Below, in pieces: positions 52,567-58,585 of a stretch of DNA of 64,000 nucleotides (its first letter is position 1; each line of letters begins with the position of its first letter). The translations under genes and the position numbers were made by a program. Below the pieces are notes generated by a model. That model searched no databases. It was not told the origin of the DNA and was given only the letters and a program-made list of their open reading frames with translations. The DNA lies in contig NZ_CP053085.1 of assembly GCF_013004105.1 (NCBI RefSeq), forward strand, positions 3,410,001-3,474,000, read 5' to 3'. Origin of the DNA: Gemmatimonas groenlandica (lineage in GTDB: Bacteria; Gemmatimonadota; Gemmatimonadetes; Gemmatimonadales; Gemmatimonadaceae).

Positions 52567-53070
52567 TTACTTGACCGTGATCACGCCCTTCATGTTCATG
52601 GCAAGGTGCGGCGTGCAATGGAACGCGTACTCACCAGCCGCCACGCCACCGAACGAGACCGTGTACGACTCGTCCGCGTTGAGCATCATCTTGCCCGAGA
52701 GCTCACCCGACTGCTCCGGCATGTTGGCCATAAGCTGCGTCTTGCCGGCGGCCGGAACCACGGCCGGATCGAACGCGACGTTGTGCGGGCCGCCGCTGAC
52801 CAGGATGAACTTGACGCCGTCGCCGGCGGCAATCGTGAGGTTGGCCGGCTCAAAACGGTAGCCAGCGCCGTCGCCGATCATCTTCACTTCGTGCGTCGTG
52901 CCCGTGATCGGGGCCATCGCACCCGCCGCAGCCGGAGCCGCCGCCGGGGCCATCGCCGTCGTGTCGGCCGCCGGAGCCATCGCCGAATCGGTCGTGGCCG
53001 CCTTGTCTCCACCGCACGCGCCCAGCATGATCGCTGCGCCCGTCACTACCGCAAAACCGAGAAACCGCAT
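52567..53070 (-). CDS. Lipoprotein cupredoxin (plastocyanin/auracyanin-like)
   Basis: The 167-residue protein has a lipobox (AAIMLGACGG, Cys near 19) and an Ala/Pro/Met-rich linker of about 40 residues. A cupredoxin domain follows with type I copper ligands: His in SGGPHNVAF, then Cys and His in YAFHCTPH and Met in LAMNMKG. It is a membrane-tethered periplasmic electron carrier, similar to auracyanin or plastocyanin. A strong Shine-Dalgarno (AGGAGG) precedes the ATG, and a CRP-type palindrome lies about 90 bp upstream. The redox partner is not encoded nearby. Confidence 0.92.
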   Translation of the reverse strand: MRFLGFAVVTGAAIMLGACGGDKAATTDSAMAPAADTTAMAPAAAPAAAGAMAPITGTTHEVKMIGDGAGYRFEPANLTIAAGDGVKFILVSGGPHNVAFDPAVVPAAGKTQLMANMPEQSGELSGKMMLNADESYTVSFGGVAAGEYAFHCTPHLAMNMKGVITVK

Positions 53071-53206: not shown

Positions 53207-53235
53207 TTGACGAGCGTTCCCGACCCCACTACGCT
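53207..53235 (+). promoter_or_regulatory. Candidate promoter of the histidine operon
   Basis: TTGACG (53207-53212), a 17-bp spacer and TACGCT (53230-53235) fit a sigma70 promoter. The predicted start near 53242 would place the leader-peptide ATG (53246) almost at the 5' end of the RNA. The -10 is weak. Confidence 0.5.
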
Positions 53236-53245
53236 CCTCTGCATC

Positions 53246-53323
53246 ATGCAGAGCCGCCACCACCATCATGCACATCGCAGCCACGGCCACACGGGTCGGG
53301 GCGCTTCGTGCGTGCCACGGTGA
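53246..53323 (+). CDS. hisL: Histidine operon leader peptide
   Basis: The 25-codon ORF reads M-Q-S-R, four His, A-H-R-S-H-G-H, then T-G-R-G-A-S-C-V-P-R and TGA: seven His in eleven codons (positions 5-15). It lies 104 bp before hisG and just ahead of an intrinsic terminator. In enteric bacteria stalling at such His runs, when charged tRNA-His is scarce, lets an antiterminator form. The peptide itself has no expected function. No Shine-Dalgarno is visible, which fits a near-leaderless start. Confidence 0.85.
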   Translation: MQSRHHHHAHRSHGHTGRGASCVPR

Positions 53324-53400
53324 ACAGCACAGCTCGCTGATCCCGCAGCACCCAAGCGATCCTCGGCCCGTCCCTTCCGGACGGGCCGTTTGTTTTTGTC
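53291..53400 (+). promoter_or_regulatory. His-operon transcription attenuator (terminator and alternative antiterminator)
   Basis: Terminator: CGGCCCGTCC (53364-53373) pairs with GGACGGGCCG (53379-53388) around CTTCC, followed by TTTGTTTTTG. Antiterminator: 53291-53301 (starting ACGGGTCGGG, right after the His codons) pairs with 53361-53371 over 11 bp with two G-U pairs, taking most of the terminator 5' arm. The two structures cannot coexist, which is the logic of ribosome-mediated attenuation. Confidence 0.8.
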
Positions 53401-53427
53401 CGTCCCGCTCTCCTTTCCCAGACCGTC

Positions 53428-54306
53428 ATGCTACGAATCGCGCTGCCCAACAAAGGGCGCCTGAGTGAAGACACCCGTGAGCTCTTCAACGACGCCGGCC
53501 TCGAGGTCCGCTCGTCGGGGGAGCGCGCCCTCACCGCCTCCCTGGGGGGAGAGTTCGAAGCCATCTTCGTTCGCGCCCAGGACATTCCTGAGTTCGTGGC
53601 CGACGGCGCCGCCGATGTCGGCGTGACCGGCATGGACCTGGTCAATGAATCGGGACGCGAGCTCCGCTCCCACCTCGACCTCGGCTTCGGCCGCTGCCGC
53701 CTCGTGGTAGCCGCCAAGGACGATTCGGGGATTCGCTCGATCGAGGACATCGGCGCCGACGGCAAGGCCGCCCGCGTCGCCACGGTCTTCCCCCGCATCA
53801 CGCGCACCTTCTTCGAGTCGCGCGGCCGTCCGGTGGAAGTGGTCCCCGTATCCGGGGCCGCCGAGATCGCTCCCCACTTGGGCATTGCCGACATCGTCGT
53901 GGATCTCACGTCGACCGGCTCCACGCTCAAAATGAACGGGCTGCGGGAGATCGAGACGGTCATGAAGTCGAGCGCCCACCTCGTTACCGCCATGAACGGC
54001 CCCCGCAACGGCGATCCGTCCCGTGTGCAGGAGCTGAACGACCTCGTGACCGCGCTCGGTTCGGTGATCCGGGCCCGGGGCCAGCGCTATCTCATGGCCA
54101 ACGTGCCTCGCGCCGCTCTCGATGAGGTGCGGGCCGTGCTGCCCGGTCTCAATGGACCGACGGTCATCGAGATCGCCGACCACGGGAAGTATGTGGCCGT
54201 ACACGCCGTCGTCAGCGCCGACACCATCTACCGCACCATCTCGCAGCTCCGCGCCCTCGGCGGCGAAGGCATTCTGGTGACCCGTATCGAAAGGCTTGTG
54301 CCGTGA
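53428..54306 (+). CDS. hisG: ATP phosphoribosyltransferase (long form)
   Basis: The 292-residue long-form HisG needs no HisZ subunit. It shows IALPNKGRLSEDTRELFNDAG, then DGAADVGVTGMDLV and the PRPP-binding loop region DLTSTGSTLKMNGLREIE. The C-terminal ~75 residues form the regulatory ACT-like domain (MANVPRAALDEVRAVLPGL and later). It joins ATP and PRPP, the committed step of histidine synthesis. It heads the operon and overlaps hisD by 4 bp. Confidence 0.96.
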   Translation: MLRIALPNKGRLSEDTRELFNDAGLEVRSSGERALTASLGGEFEAIFVRAQDIPEFVADGAADVGVTGMDLVNESGRELRSHLDLGFGRCRLVVAAKDDSGIRSIEDIGADGKAARVATVFPRITRTFFESRGRPVEVVPVSGAAEIAPHLGIADIVVDLTSTGSTLKMNGLREIETVMKSSAHLVTAMNGPRNGDPSRVQELNDLVTALGSVIRARGQRYLMANVPRAALDEVRAVLPGLNGPTVIEIADHGKYVAVHAVVSADTIYRTISQLRALGGEGILVTRIERLVP

Positions 54307-55637
54307 CGGCCGCGACTGCGCTTGGGCTGCGCGCTCGCGGCCCGCTCGCGGCGCTCGATGCCACGACGCGTCAGGCGATCGTAGACCGCGCCTCGACGAC
54401 CGACACAACCGTTCGGAGCCGAACAGCCGCGATGATCGCCCGTGTCCGCGAGGAGGGCGATGCCGCTCTGGTCGCCTTCGCGCGGGATTTCGACCGCGTC
54501 GAACTGCCCGCGATCGAGGTGCCACGTGCGGCGTGGGAGGCGGCGCTAGCTTCGCTGGATCCGGAGCTCCGCCGGGTGCTGGAGCGGTCGGCCCGCAACA
54601 TCGCCGCCGTGCACGAGGCCTTCCGCCCGACGGCCACCGAGTGCTCTCCCGAGCCCGGCATTCGAGTGGGTCGGCGTCCCGACCCACTCGGCCGAGTGGG
54701 GATTTATGCGCCCGGAGGACGGGCGGCGTATCCGAGTTCACTGCTGATGGGTGCGATCCCGGCCCGGGTGGCGGGGGTGGGCGACGTGATCGTCTGCTCG
54801 CCGCCCGGCCCCGATGGATTGCCGTCCGCCGTGGTGCTGGCCGCCGCCGCATTGGCCGGAGTGGACCGGGTGTTCGCGCTCGGCGGCGCGGGGGCCATCG
54901 CCGCGATGGCCATCGGCACCGCGACGGTACCGCGCGTGGACCGCATCATGGGACCCGGCAACGCGTTCGTGGCCGAAGCCAAGCTGCAGTTGGTGGCGGA
55001 CGTGGCGATCGACTCGCCGGCCGGACCGAGCGAACTGCTGATCCTGGCAGACCACACCGCTAACCCGGCCGCGCTGGCCCGCGAACTGATGGCGCAGGCC
55101 GAGCACGACCCCGATGCGGCGGTGATTGCCGTGCTGGTCGGTTCGCCTGAGCAGGTATCGGCAATGTCCGACGCGCTGGAAGTCGAAACGCTGGCGCAGA
55201 TCGCGCAGGCCCCGCGGGCGCAGATCGTGCGCGAGTCGCTCGCCGCGCGTGGAGCCATCGTGTCAGTGAGCTCCATCGCCGACGGTGTTGCCTTCGCCAA
55301 TGAGTGGGCGGCGGAACACCTGCTGCTCGTGGTCGATGCCGCCGTGCGCGCGGAGACGCTGGCGGCGCTGCGCAGCGCCGGCACGATCTTCGTAGGTGAA
55401 TCGAGTTCGGTGGCGTTCGGTGATTACATGACCGGCGCCAATCATGTACTGCCGACGGCCGGCGCGGGTCGCAGCTACTCCGGGCTCTCGACGCTCGACT
55501 TCGTGCGGTGGACCACGTGGCAGGAAGTCTCGCCCGCTGCCGCGGCGAGCCTCGCGCACGATGTCGGCGCCTTCGCCGACGCCGAAGGATTGCCGGCGCA
55601 CGCGGCCGCCGCACGCGCATGGAGTGTGAACGCATGA
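54303..55637 (+). CDS. hisD: Histidinol dehydrogenase
   Basis: The 444-residue zinc enzyme oxidises histidinol to histidine in two NAD-dependent steps. It shows VGIYAPGGRAAYPSSLLMGAIPA, then GGAGAIAAMAIGT, the zinc-region GPSELLILADHTANP with AQAEHDPDA, and the C-terminal NHVLPTAGAGRSYSGLS. It starts at GTG, overlapping hisG by 4 bp, and overlaps hisC by 4 bp. The normal family length and all key segments are kept. Confidence 0.96.
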   Translation: MTAATALGLRARGPLAALDATTRQAIVDRASTTDTTVRSRTAAMIARVREEGDAALVAFARDFDRVELPAIEVPRAAWEAALASLDPELRRVLERSARNIAAVHEAFRPTATECSPEPGIRVGRRPDPLGRVGIYAPGGRAAYPSSLLMGAIPARVAGVGDVIVCSPPGPDGLPSAVVLAAAALAGVDRVFALGGAGAIAAMAIGTATVPRVDRIMGPGNAFVAEAKLQLVADVAIDSPAGPSELLILADHTANPAALARELMAQAEHDPDAAVIAVLVGSPEQVSAMSDALEVETLAQIAQAPRAQIVRESLAARGAIVSVSSIADGVAFANEWAAEHLLLVVDAAVRAETLAALRSAGTIFVGESSSVAFGDYMTGANHVLPTAGAGRSYSGLSTLDFVRWTTWQEVSPAAAASLAHDVGAFADAEGLPAHAAAARAWSVNA

Positions 55638-56707
55638 CAGACAATTCTCAGCGTCTTGCCGTAGCGCGCGCGGCGTACGATGCCGTGCCCCTGTACGATC
55701 CGAAGCGCGCACCGGTGGACCTCGACCTCACCGACAACACGAACCTGTGGGGCATACCGCCGGAAGCCGAACGCGCCTGGCGCGAGCTGCCGGTGGCGCG
55801 CATCACGCGCTACCCCACGCTGTACGCGGCAGAGCTCAAGCAGGCGCTCGCTGCCTACGTGGGTGTCACGGCCGACATGATCGTTACCGGCTGCGGCTCC
55901 GATGACATTCTCGACAGCGCCATGCGCGCATTCGGTGAAGCGGACGATCTCGTGGCAGGCCCGGAACCGTCGTTTGCGATGATTCCGATCTTTGCACGCA
56001 TGAACGCGCTGCGGTACACCGGCTGCGTGGAGTTGCCCTCGCATCAGCCCGACATCGAGGCGTTGCTCGCCACGAAGCCGAAGCTGTTGTATCTGTGCTC
56101 GCCCAACAATCCCACCGGCGCACTGGTGGCACGTGACACCATCGAGCGCGTGCTGCGCGAAGCGCCCGGCGTGGTGTTTCTCGATGAAGCCTATGCCGAA
56201 TTCGCCGGCGTGTCGTCGGTCGATCTGGTTCAGCAGTCCGATCGCCTGTTGGTAATCCGCACGATGTCGAAGGCGTTCGGCCTCGCGGGGCTGCGCATCG
56301 GATACGCCATTGGGCAACCGTCGCTGGTCATGGAAGTGGAGAAGTCGCGCGGGCCGTACAAGCTGAACGCCATGGCCGAACAGACCGCACTCGCGGCGTT
56401 GCAGCACGATATGCCGTGGGTAAACGAGCACATTGCGCTGGCGGTCGAGCTGCGTGAGCGACTGGCAGACGCACTCCGCTCACGCGGATTCGCCCCGTTG
56501 GCGTCGCATGCGAACTTCGTGTGCGTGCCGGTGCCGGATTGTGTGAACGTCGGGCTCGCACTGCGGGAACGCGGCGTCGCGGTCCGGCCGTTTCCGGGGC
56601 TGCCGCACATCGGCGACACGTTGCGCATCAGCGTCGGCCCTTGGCCGTTGCTCGAGCGCTTTCTCGCCGCATTTGATGATGTGATGGCTACGGGGAGGTC
56701 CGCATGA
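55634..56707 (+). CDS. hisC: Histidinol-phosphate aminotransferase
   Basis: The 357-residue fold-type I PLP enzyme shows LTDNTNLWGIPPEAERAW (the N-terminal substrate segment), VTGCGSDDILDSAMRAF, CSPNNPTGALV, the PLP Asp in VVFLDEAYAEFAG, and Lys in RTMSKAFGLAGLRIGYA. It transaminates imidazole-acetol phosphate to histidinol phosphate. ATG 55634 overlaps the hisD stop (ATGA); the open frame further upstream is inside hisD. Confidence 0.95.
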   Translation: MTDNSQRLAVARAAYDAVPLYDPKRAPVDLDLTDNTNLWGIPPEAERAWRELPVARITRYPTLYAAELKQALAAYVGVTADMIVTGCGSDDILDSAMRAFGEADDLVAGPEPSFAMIPIFARMNALRYTGCVELPSHQPDIEALLATKPKLLYLCSPNNPTGALVARDTIERVLREAPGVVFLDEAYAEFAGVSSVDLVQQSDRLLVIRTMSKAFGLAGLRIGYAIGQPSLVMEVEKSRGPYKLNAMAEQTALAALQHDMPWVNEHIALAVELRERLADALRSRGFAPLASHANFVCVPVPDCVNVGLALRERGVAVRPFPGLPHIGDTLRISVGPWPLLERFLAAFDDVMATGRSA

Positions 56708-57336
56708 CGAACACCCTCCGGGTGACTGTCTTCGATTACGGCGCCGGCAATCTGCACTCGTTGGTAAAAGCCGTTGAAGCCGGCGGCGCGGTCGTCCACG
56801 TGGAAACCGATCCGGTGCTCGCGGTGCGCGACACCGATGCCCTGATCCTTCCTGGTGTCGGCGCCTTCGCGCCGGCCGCCGAACGACTCGCGCCCGGACG
56901 TGAGGTCATGCGCGACGCGCTGCTGGCCGGACTGCCGACGCTCGGCATCTGCCTGGGCATGCAGCTGCTGTTCGACGGCAGCGACGAGGGGCCCGGCCGA
57001 GGTCTGGGTGTCGTGGAGGGACAGGTCACGAAGCTGGTGGCCACACAGGTTCCCCAGATCGGCTGGAACCGCCTCGAGGACATCACCGACCCGCTGCTCG
57101 TAGCGTCGGGGCTCGACGTCGCGTACTACGCCAACAGCTTCGTTTGTCGTCCCACCGCCGAGCATGCGCCGTTGGTGAGCGCGTGGAGCGAACATGACGG
57201 CGACCGCTTCCCCGCGTCGGTTCGACGCGGCAACATCATCGGCACGCAGTTCCATCCGGAAAAGTCGAGTGCCCCCGGCGTGGCCTTCGTGCGTGAGTTT
57301 CTGCAGTTCGCCGCTTCCCTCAGGAGTGCGTCATGA
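56704..57336 (+). CDS. hisH: Imidazole glycerol phosphate synthase, glutaminase subunit
   Basis: This 210-residue class I glutamine amidotransferase has the nucleophile Cys in LGICLGMQLLFDGS and the His-Glu pair in GTQFHPEKSS. The N-terminal VFDYGAGNLHSLVKAVEAGG is typical of HisH. It feeds ammonia to HisF, which is encoded three genes later. Both ends overlap neighbouring genes by 4 bp. Confidence 0.96.
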   Translation: MTNTLRVTVFDYGAGNLHSLVKAVEAGGAVVHVETDPVLAVRDTDALILPGVGAFAPAAERLAPGREVMRDALLAGLPTLGICLGMQLLFDGSDEGPGRGLGVVEGQVTKLVATQVPQIGWNRLEDITDPLLVASGLDVAYYANSFVCRPTAEHAPLVSAWSEHDGDRFPASVRRGNIIGTQFHPEKSSAPGVAFVREFLQFAASLRSAS

Positions 57337-58046
57337 TCGCTGTACCCGCGGTGGATCTGCGTGGTGGCAAATGCGTGCAGCTCGTCGGTGGAGACTACGA
57401 CGACGAGCGGGTGCGTCTCGATGATCCCGGAGCGGTGGCGGCCGAGTGGGTGCGCATCGGCTTCACGCGCTTGCATATCGTCGATCTCGATGCGGCCACC
57501 GGCCGTGGTCAGAATCACGACGTCATTCGTGAGATCCTGCGTGATGCCACCGTGCCCGTGCAGGTCGGTGGTGGCGTACGCGACGAAGCGCGGATCGAGC
57601 GGTTGCTCGAGGAAGGCGCCTCGTGGGTGGTGGTGGGCACGCGTGCCATTGAAGACGAAGACTGGCGCCGCGAGATGGCTGACAAATTTCCCGGCCGCCT
57701 GATCATCGCGGCCGATGTGCGCGAGCGGAAAGTGGTCACGCGCGGCTGGGCGGAGACTTCACAGATCGACGTGATCGATTTCGTGTCCGAGCTTTCTCAG
57801 CTTCCGCTGGCAGGCGTGCTGGTCACCGCCGTGCATCTCGAGGGCAAGATGTCTGGTACCGATCTTCCGCTCATGGAAGATGTCGCCGAGGCGAGCCAGT
57901 GGCCGGTATTCGCGTCGGGTGGTGTGACGTCGTTGGATGATATGCGTGCGCTCGAACACCGCGGCCTGTCCGGCGCCGTGCTCGGCATGGCGCTTTACAC
58001 GGGCGCGCTCGATGCGCGCCGTCTCGCAGAGGAGTTCGGCGCATGA
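57333..58046 (+). CDS. hisA: ProFAR isomerase (phosphoribosylformimino-AICAR-phosphate isomerase)
   Basis: The 237-residue TIM barrel shows the general base Asp in PAVDLRGGKCVQLVGGDY, phosphate-binding Gly motifs VQVGGGVRDEARIERLL and FASGGVTSLDDM, and the second catalytic Asp in IIAADVRERKVVTRGWAE. It opens the ribose ring of ProFAR by Amadori rearrangement. The lack of TrpF-like changes argues for a plain HisA. Confidence 0.96.
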   Translation: MIAVPAVDLRGGKCVQLVGGDYDDERVRLDDPGAVAAEWVRIGFTRLHIVDLDAATGRGQNHDVIREILRDATVPVQVGGGVRDEARIERLLEEGASWVVVGTRAIEDEDWRREMADKFPGRLIIAADVRERKVVTRGWAETSQIDVIDFVSELSQLPLAGVLVTAVHLEGKMSGTDLPLMEDVAEASQWPVFASGGVTSLDDMRALEHRGLSGAVLGMALYTGALDARRLAEEFGA

Positions 58047-58585
58047 CCGTCGTGATTCGCGAATCGAAGGAAACCCAGATCCGCTTGGCGATCACTGCCG
58101 GCACGGGCGTCGCCACGGTGTCCACCGGCGATGTCTTTCTCGATCACATGCTGGTGGCGTTCGCGCGCTACGCGGGCGTGGATCTCGATGTACAGGCCAC
58201 CGGCGACATGCGCCATCATCTCATCGAAGATGTGGCCATTACCCTCGGCCAGGCGGTCGCGGCGTTCGCGCCGGCTGGCTGCGCGCGTTACGGCGAGCGG
58301 ACCGTGCCGATGGACGACGCCCTCGTGCAGGTGGTGCTCGATATCGGCGGACGTCCGTATTACGAGGGCAAGCTGCCGTCGAATTTGTACGAGCACTTCC
58401 TGCGCTCGTTCGCCGACAATGCCAAGGCGACCCTGCACGTGCGCGTGATCCGCGGCTTCGACAAGCATCACATCATCGAAGCGGCCATCAAGGGGCTCGG
58501 CTTTGCGCTGCGCGAGGCGCTGGTGGAAACCGGTGCCGTGTTCAGCACGAAGGGCAGCGTGCGTCTCGAGATCAGGGACTCGTAA
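58043..58585 (+). CDS. hisB: Imidazoleglycerol-phosphate dehydratase (divergent)
   Basis: The 180-residue protein keeps the IGPD fold: VFLDHMLVAFARYAG, then GDMRHHLIEDVAITLGQA and a second copy DKHHIIEAAIKGLGFALREAL. It is shorter than the usual ~195. The normal DDHHTxED metal motif is RHHLIED here, about three residues shorter and lacking the Asp, and the usual RHGG is RYAG. It lies in the right place of a complete his operon, so it very probably dehydrates IGP, with an altered manganese site. It has no phosphatase fusion; HisN supplies that step. Confidence 0.9.
   Translation: MTVVIRESKETQIRLAITAGTGVATVSTGDVFLDHMLVAFARYAGVDLDVQATGDMRHHLIEDVAITLGQAVAAFAPAGCARYGERTVPMDDALVQVVLDIGGRPYYEGKLPSNLYEHFLRSFADNAKATLHVRVIRGFDKHHIIEAAIKGLGFALREALVETGAVFSTKGSVRLEIRDS

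Follow-up and report, generated by a model that had tools for sequence, protein, structure and literature searches.

A putative near-leaderless histidine attenuator upstream of hisG in Gemmatimonadota and its siblings with other codon runs

How is histidine synthesis controlled in Gemmatimonadota, a phylum with little-known gene regulation? The his operon of the soil/water bacterium Gemmatimonas groenlandica, which lies in the window analyzed here (a 64,000-nucleotide stretch of its genome), raises this question. The first gene of the operon, hisG (53428-54306, + strand), encodes ATP phosphoribosyltransferase of the long form, which scores above the cut-offs of both TIGR00070 (3e-64) and TIGR03455; named relatives (Gemmatimonas/Gemmatimonadetes MAGs), with 96-97% HisG identity, support the placement in Gemmatimonadota. 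A closely spaced series of reading frames follows on the same strand (54303-58585), and their translations read as hisD, hisC, hisH, hisA, and hisB. Judged from its sequence, the region ahead of hisG very probably acts as a ribosome-mediated transcription attenuator, with charged tRNA-His as the signal and hisG together with the his operon as the target. Leader-peptide attenuation, mainly known from Proteobacteria, Actinobacteria, and Firmicutes, would thereby extend to Gemmatimonadota. Upstream of the leader, a divergent gene on the - strand (52567-53070) encodes a putative small secreted cupredoxin-like protein (AGDGVKFILVSGGPHNVAFDP...).

The sensor of this candidate attenuator is a 25-codon reading frame (53246-53323, + strand) that translates as MQSRHHHHAHRSHGHTGRGASCVPR, ends with a stop codon at 53321-53323, and is kept in relatives. 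Histidine occupies residues 5-8, 10, 13, and 15, so that seven His codons fall within eleven positions (53258-53290), and the locus thus has the short frame that characterizes leader-peptide attenuators, in which codons for the amino acid made by the operon are clustered. Among 127 hisG-upstream regions of relatives, an ATG-initiated frame with at least five His in 12 codons occurs in 108, and in none of 635 dinucleotide shuffles of the same regions. Only His is enriched among the six residues tested there, with no notable enrichment of Thr, Phe, Tyr, Trp, or Leu. CAC and CAT alternate in the relatives' leaders (425 and 327, respectively), which shows that the residue is conserved and not the bases. 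Beyond the His run, the segment (G)PTGRG is conserved, its TGRG codons being exactly the antiterminator arm described below, and the other leader residues vary widely among relatives.

An intrinsic terminator with a U-rich tail (53364-53397, + strand) separates the leader frame from the first structural gene, as is usual in attenuators. Its stem-loop (53364-53388), recovered by a terminator scan, has 10 pairs (9 of them G-C) and a loop of 5, and folds alone with -22.1 kcal/mol (z -5.6); the region 53225-53400 as a whole is also more stably folded than its shuffles (z -3.7). Immediately past the regulatory codons, the antiterminator 5' arm ACGGGUCGGGG (53291-53301, with a counterpart in relatives) can pair without interruption over 11 bp (9 Watson-Crick, 2 G-U) with the 3' arm CCUCGGCCCGU (53361-53371), which overlaps the terminator 5' arm at 53364-53371, so that at the level of sequence and comparison the two structures are mutually exclusive. 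In the minimum free energy fold, a protector (anti-antiterminator) hairpin (53267-53314) is made of an outer stem (53267-53273/53308-53314) and an inner hairpin (53277-53304) that contains the antiterminator arm, and a stalled ribosome could open it. An earlier note on this DNA had described the leader with its seven His codons in eleven positions, which agrees base for base with the sequence, as well as the terminator with its T-run and the 11-bp pairing consuming the terminator 5' arm, both of which are recovered here. The note had also argued that an arm directly downstream of the His run suits a stalling logic, and this holds when the protector hairpin is taken into account. The protector itself was absent from that note, as were the conservation throughout the class, the siblings with Thr, Phe, or Tyr runs, and the presence in myxobacteria, all described below.

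From these elements and their conservation, we infer the start site, translation, ribosome stalling, and read-through as follows. The transcript would begin only a few nucleotides upstream of the leader's AUG, making the leader mRNA near-leaderless. When histidine is plentiful, the ribosome would pass the His codons and reach the stop codon (53321), where its footprint would begin near 53306 and spare the inner protector. The inner protector would form behind the ribosome and hold the antiterminator arm, the terminator would form, and transcription would end before hisG. A shortage of charged tRNA-His would instead hold the ribosome on the early His codons (A site at about 53258-53275), where it would cover the RNA roughly up to 53272-53290. 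The 5' side of the protector would then be blocked and the arm free to pair with 53361-53371, taking the 5' strand of the terminator, and polymerase would read into hisG. The last two His codons lie so near the arm that a ribosome stalled on them would cover it, and therefore the early His codons should be the sensors.

The near-leaderless design follows from promoter spacing. A putative promoter (53207-53235, + strand) consists of a -35 hexamer TTGACG (53207-53212), a 17-nt spacer, and a -10 hexamer TACGCT (53230-53235), with the leader ATG 10 nt past the latter. With only 8 of 12 positions agreeing with the consensus, it is not listed by a generic promoter scan. Among the 117 relatives with an ATG leader, 91 carry TTGAC-N16-18-TANNNT ahead of this ATG, and 85 of these 91 have 5-10 nt between the -10 hexamer and the ATG; Shine-Dalgarno-like motifs are rare (10/117). 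This layout implies that in most relatives the transcript starts at the AUG or only a few nucleotides away from it, and it agrees with the 'almost leaderless' leader of the earlier note. Such a design is unusual but has precedents: leaderless leader peptides are documented for trpL of Sinorhizobium meliloti (PMC7298713) and for leuL, trpL, and ilvL of Streptomyces lividans (PMC8079986), whose leader frames also lie at or near the transcript 5' end. These differ in their Trp or branched-chain specificities and in that their start sites were measured, whereas that of the hisG leader is deduced from sequence.

Is the arrangement peculiar to G. groenlandica? HisG was searched in 395 Gemmatimonadota genomes and 130 upstream regions were taken, of which 127 were distinct and long enough; a leader was called automatically when at least 4 His fell within 12 codons. 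Leader and terminator precede the long-form hisG in that order in 120 of the 127 regions, contrary to the outcome set beforehand as a refutation, namely that relatives lack the His frame or the terminator. Position, frame, ATG, arm, and terminator are kept in over 90% of relatives. Individual departures include an atypical U-tract with both elements present (L096), a weaker leader (MLAARTHHHRPRPTGPRGPHVRR, L029), a leader with two His only (L121), and an upstream region broken by Ns (L032); neither leader nor terminator is seen in three of the regions (L057, L130, and L131). The His attenuator is kept throughout the class, and among Gemmatimonadota with long-form hisG it is either an ancestral feature or a very common one. 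In families f2, f6, f7, f11, and part of f5, many genomes carry a hisG that is far more divergent (E about 1e-30) and probably of the short HisG form needing HisZ. In addition, four MAGs labelled Gammaproteobacteria or BD2-11 (L304, L306, L307, and L308) carry a Gemmatimonadota-type hisG directly after another reading frame and have no attenuator at this gene; the Gammaproteobacteria labels look wrong.

Compensatory changes among relatives, which the earlier note had proposed as a check, support three helices in an alignment of 48 sequences (A1). For protector and terminator together, 79% of cells are paired, compared with 33-47% when the strands are slid by 1-3 positions, 16 of 24 pairs have changed on both sides (9.9 +/- 1.7 in shuffles), and covariation is 0.190 versus 0.129. 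The outer stem of the protector is the most variable helix (60% paired) but the richest in compensatory changes. For the antiterminator, 85% of cells are paired (35-51% when slid) and five pairs show double changes, a modest signal because the core (CGGG/CCCG) hardly varies among relatives: its CCCG is shared with the terminator and has to match either arm. Matched changes in arm and terminator are found in L035 and L108 (A-U to G-C) and in L098 (G-C to A-U). Furthermore, the arm counterparts of relatives pair with the terminator 5' arm at a median of -18.7 kcal/mol, versus a mean of -7.5 for the spacer, and arms overall match their own terminators better than those of other species, only 22 of 2000 permutations being as good.

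Does the same switch serve other amino acids? A covariance model built from His sequences only (R1) matches in 183 of the 395 genomes at E <= 0.001, and its strong matches are nearly all at hisG. Many weak matches near the threshold are likely due to chance. Some secondary matches are attenuators with other codon runs, and in these Gemmatimonadota siblings the run agrees with the downstream pathway. For example, the Thr leader MTNAAIRTTGTTTTTTTRLTGRGRECLRR precedes an aspartokinase-homoserine dehydrogenase gene (L165) and the Phe leader MPLRSSHFCFIFFFATHSTGRDWRHARD a prephenate dehydratase gene (L177); Tyr/Phe runs precede DAHP synthase (L168, L171, L172, and L173), Tyr runs a phenylalanine-hydroxylase-like gene (L167, L170, and L175), and further His runs hisC (L162) and hisN (L163). 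A generic model built from siblings (R2) yielded several dozen additional ones in the family, the great majority being Tyr(/Phe) leaders upstream of genes reading as DAHP synthase or phenylalanine 4-monooxygenase, and one match lies ahead of chorismate mutase and prephenate dehydrogenase (L225). Another 65 genomes, chosen mainly for divergent-form hisG, contributed Phe and Tyr/Phe leaders and one more Thr case (L325). The downstream genes of representative siblings were confirmed by Pfam, most by NCBIfam too. Low-scoring R1 or R2 matches such as L169, L229, L233, L234, L236, L237, L331-L336, and L347 were rejected as having no convincing leader or being coding-like.

Two groups of siblings deserve separate description. 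Tyr-rich leaders precede a putative phenylalanine 4-monooxygenase gene in L198, L200, L201, L203, L210, L211, L213-L215, L221, L226, L227, and L175, and in L198, L200, and L221 the gene product is an aromatic amino acid hydroxylase by profile. To our knowledge, attenuation of phenylalanine 4-monooxygenase has not been reported before. Thr-rich leaders precede aspartokinase(-homoserine dehydrogenase) genes in L164, L165, and L325, and in the first two the neighbouring reading frame is His-rich, reading HLHHLHDHYHHD in L164; hypothetically, a one-base frameshift (CAC CAC to ACC ACC) may have turned a His sensor into a Thr sensor. In the genome of G. groenlandica itself, an exact-pattern search returned the his site and no sibling. 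The covariance models found one outside the window (L183, 3811301-3811433), whose leader MTRHRSARYWYYTPTRMGPGVFGVCD stands before DAHP synthase; a prephenate dehydratase gene is found nearby on the opposite strand (3810701-3811237). No Trp leader was seen upstream of trpE in this genome.

Could the leader RNA be switched in another way, by a ligand, a T-box, or an RNA-binding protein, with the reading frame as a passenger? Riboswitches and T-boxes also use a terminator/antiterminator logic. We regard this explanation as very unlikely, since no Rfam riboswitch or T-box matches (the T-box model at neither the gathering threshold nor E up to 10) and the run of regulatory codons is the most consistent feature of the family and tracks the pathway. 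It is just as improbable that the frame encodes a small protein with a function of its own, such as metal binding by a His-rich peptide, beside an incidental terminator. The peptide is indeed His-rich with a conserved (G)PTGRG segment, but the TGRG codons coincide with the antiterminator arm, residues elsewhere beyond the His run drift, and siblings swap His for Tyr, Phe, or Thr to match the next gene. A chance meeting of a low-complexity CAC/CAT-rich stretch with an ordinary terminator has a negligible probability: CAY-rich stretches are many in the genome (90 pattern matches, which made the whole-genome pattern uninformative as a chance control, so that upstream shuffles were used instead), but the conservation among relatives, the empty shuffles, and the compensatory changes refute it.

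How does the attenuator sensing charged tRNA-His relate to known systems? It shares with hisL of E. coli and Salmonella (RF00514) the His-codon leader, the protector/antiterminator/terminator set, and the position of hisG as first gene of the operon. Unlike the enteric system, its His codons are interrupted by other residues, the TGRG-encoded arm lies inside the leader frame, there is almost no 5' untranslated region, and the Rfam model RF00514 finds no match at the gathering threshold or at E up to 10. The earlier note had left a choice between independent evolution and a wider spread than usually recognized. The missing RF00514 match and the membership in a Gemmatimonadota-centred set of attenuators favour, without proving, an origin apart from the enteric one. 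Candidates have reportedly been described in Bacteroidetes/Chlorobi as well (Vitreschak et al., 2004). A 2010 survey cited leader-peptide systems from Proteobacteria and Actinobacteria only and added Firmicutes, including His leader-peptide attenuators of hisZ/hisS* in bacilli, with no mention of Gemmatimonadota (PMC2965389). A 2022 study described His attenuators of the Bacillus cereus group, Peptostreptococcaceae, and Erysipelotrichales (PMC9413887). These non-proteobacterial systems also have a His leader, a terminator, and an antiterminator before his genes; they belong to other phyla. A 2021 transcriptome of Flavobacterium reported leader-peptide candidates before amino-acid operons and a structured 5' element of hisG (PMC9723704). 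In a literature search covering papers available without subscription, no paper joined Gemmatimonadetes with leader-peptide attenuation. Provisionally, the lineage, the modular family, and the leaderless design appear new and the mechanism is of a known kind. Attenuation is apparently the standard control of histidine and aromatic synthesis in Gemmatimonadota.

The siblings likely form a modular attenuator family. Those for Thr, Phe, and Tyr resemble the hisG attenuator in their leader of about 24-30 codons, an ACGGG-type arm after the codon run, and a GGCCCGT/ACGGGCC-type terminator, and differ from it in the codon run and the regulated gene. Did they arise from one ancestor? In favour, the His-only model R1 scores a Thr leader with 59 bits (G379), and the siblings are alike in the length of the leader, the place of the arm, and the spacing of the promoter. 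In addition, hairpins of GGCCCGT/ACGGGCC followed by TTT occur only twice in the whole genome of G. groenlandica (one 5.18 Mb contig), which excludes that this is simply its usual terminator. Against a common origin, the arm must by logic copy the 3' arm of the terminator, so the similarity among siblings is inflated; R2 was made from siblings; and as DNA, runs of CAC (His) look much like runs of ACC (Thr). Under a common origin, one ancestral leaderless scaffold would have been reused, with codon-run swaps retuning it among His, Thr, Phe, and Tyr sensing and among pathways, including the Tyr switch on phenylalanine hydroxylase, and the His module would have travelled between phyla along with hisG, into or out of myxobacteria; we see this scenario as evenly poised between true and false. 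The sibling set is also a natural series in which the sensor codons have changed and the RNA switch has stayed constant, so the origin and retuning of attenuators can be studied directly.

The same attenuator stands before nine hisG loci in Corallococcus, Pyxidicoccus, Myxococcus, Archangium, and a Myxococcaceae MAG (L248-L251, L258, L261, L263, L265, and L282, of Myxococcaceae/Archangiaceae). In a HisG tree whose root and many deep forks are unsettled, the myxobacterial sequences join L031 and L034 of Gemmatimonadaceae (95/85 support) inside the Gemmatimonadota sample. This grouping suggests that hisG and its attenuator were likely transferred jointly between Gemmatimonadota and myxobacteria, in either direction, and hence that a gene and its attenuator may cross phyla together. 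The myxobacterial leaders start mostly with GTG, as in VHHHHAHHRPAHDGTVRRAHAWVTH.
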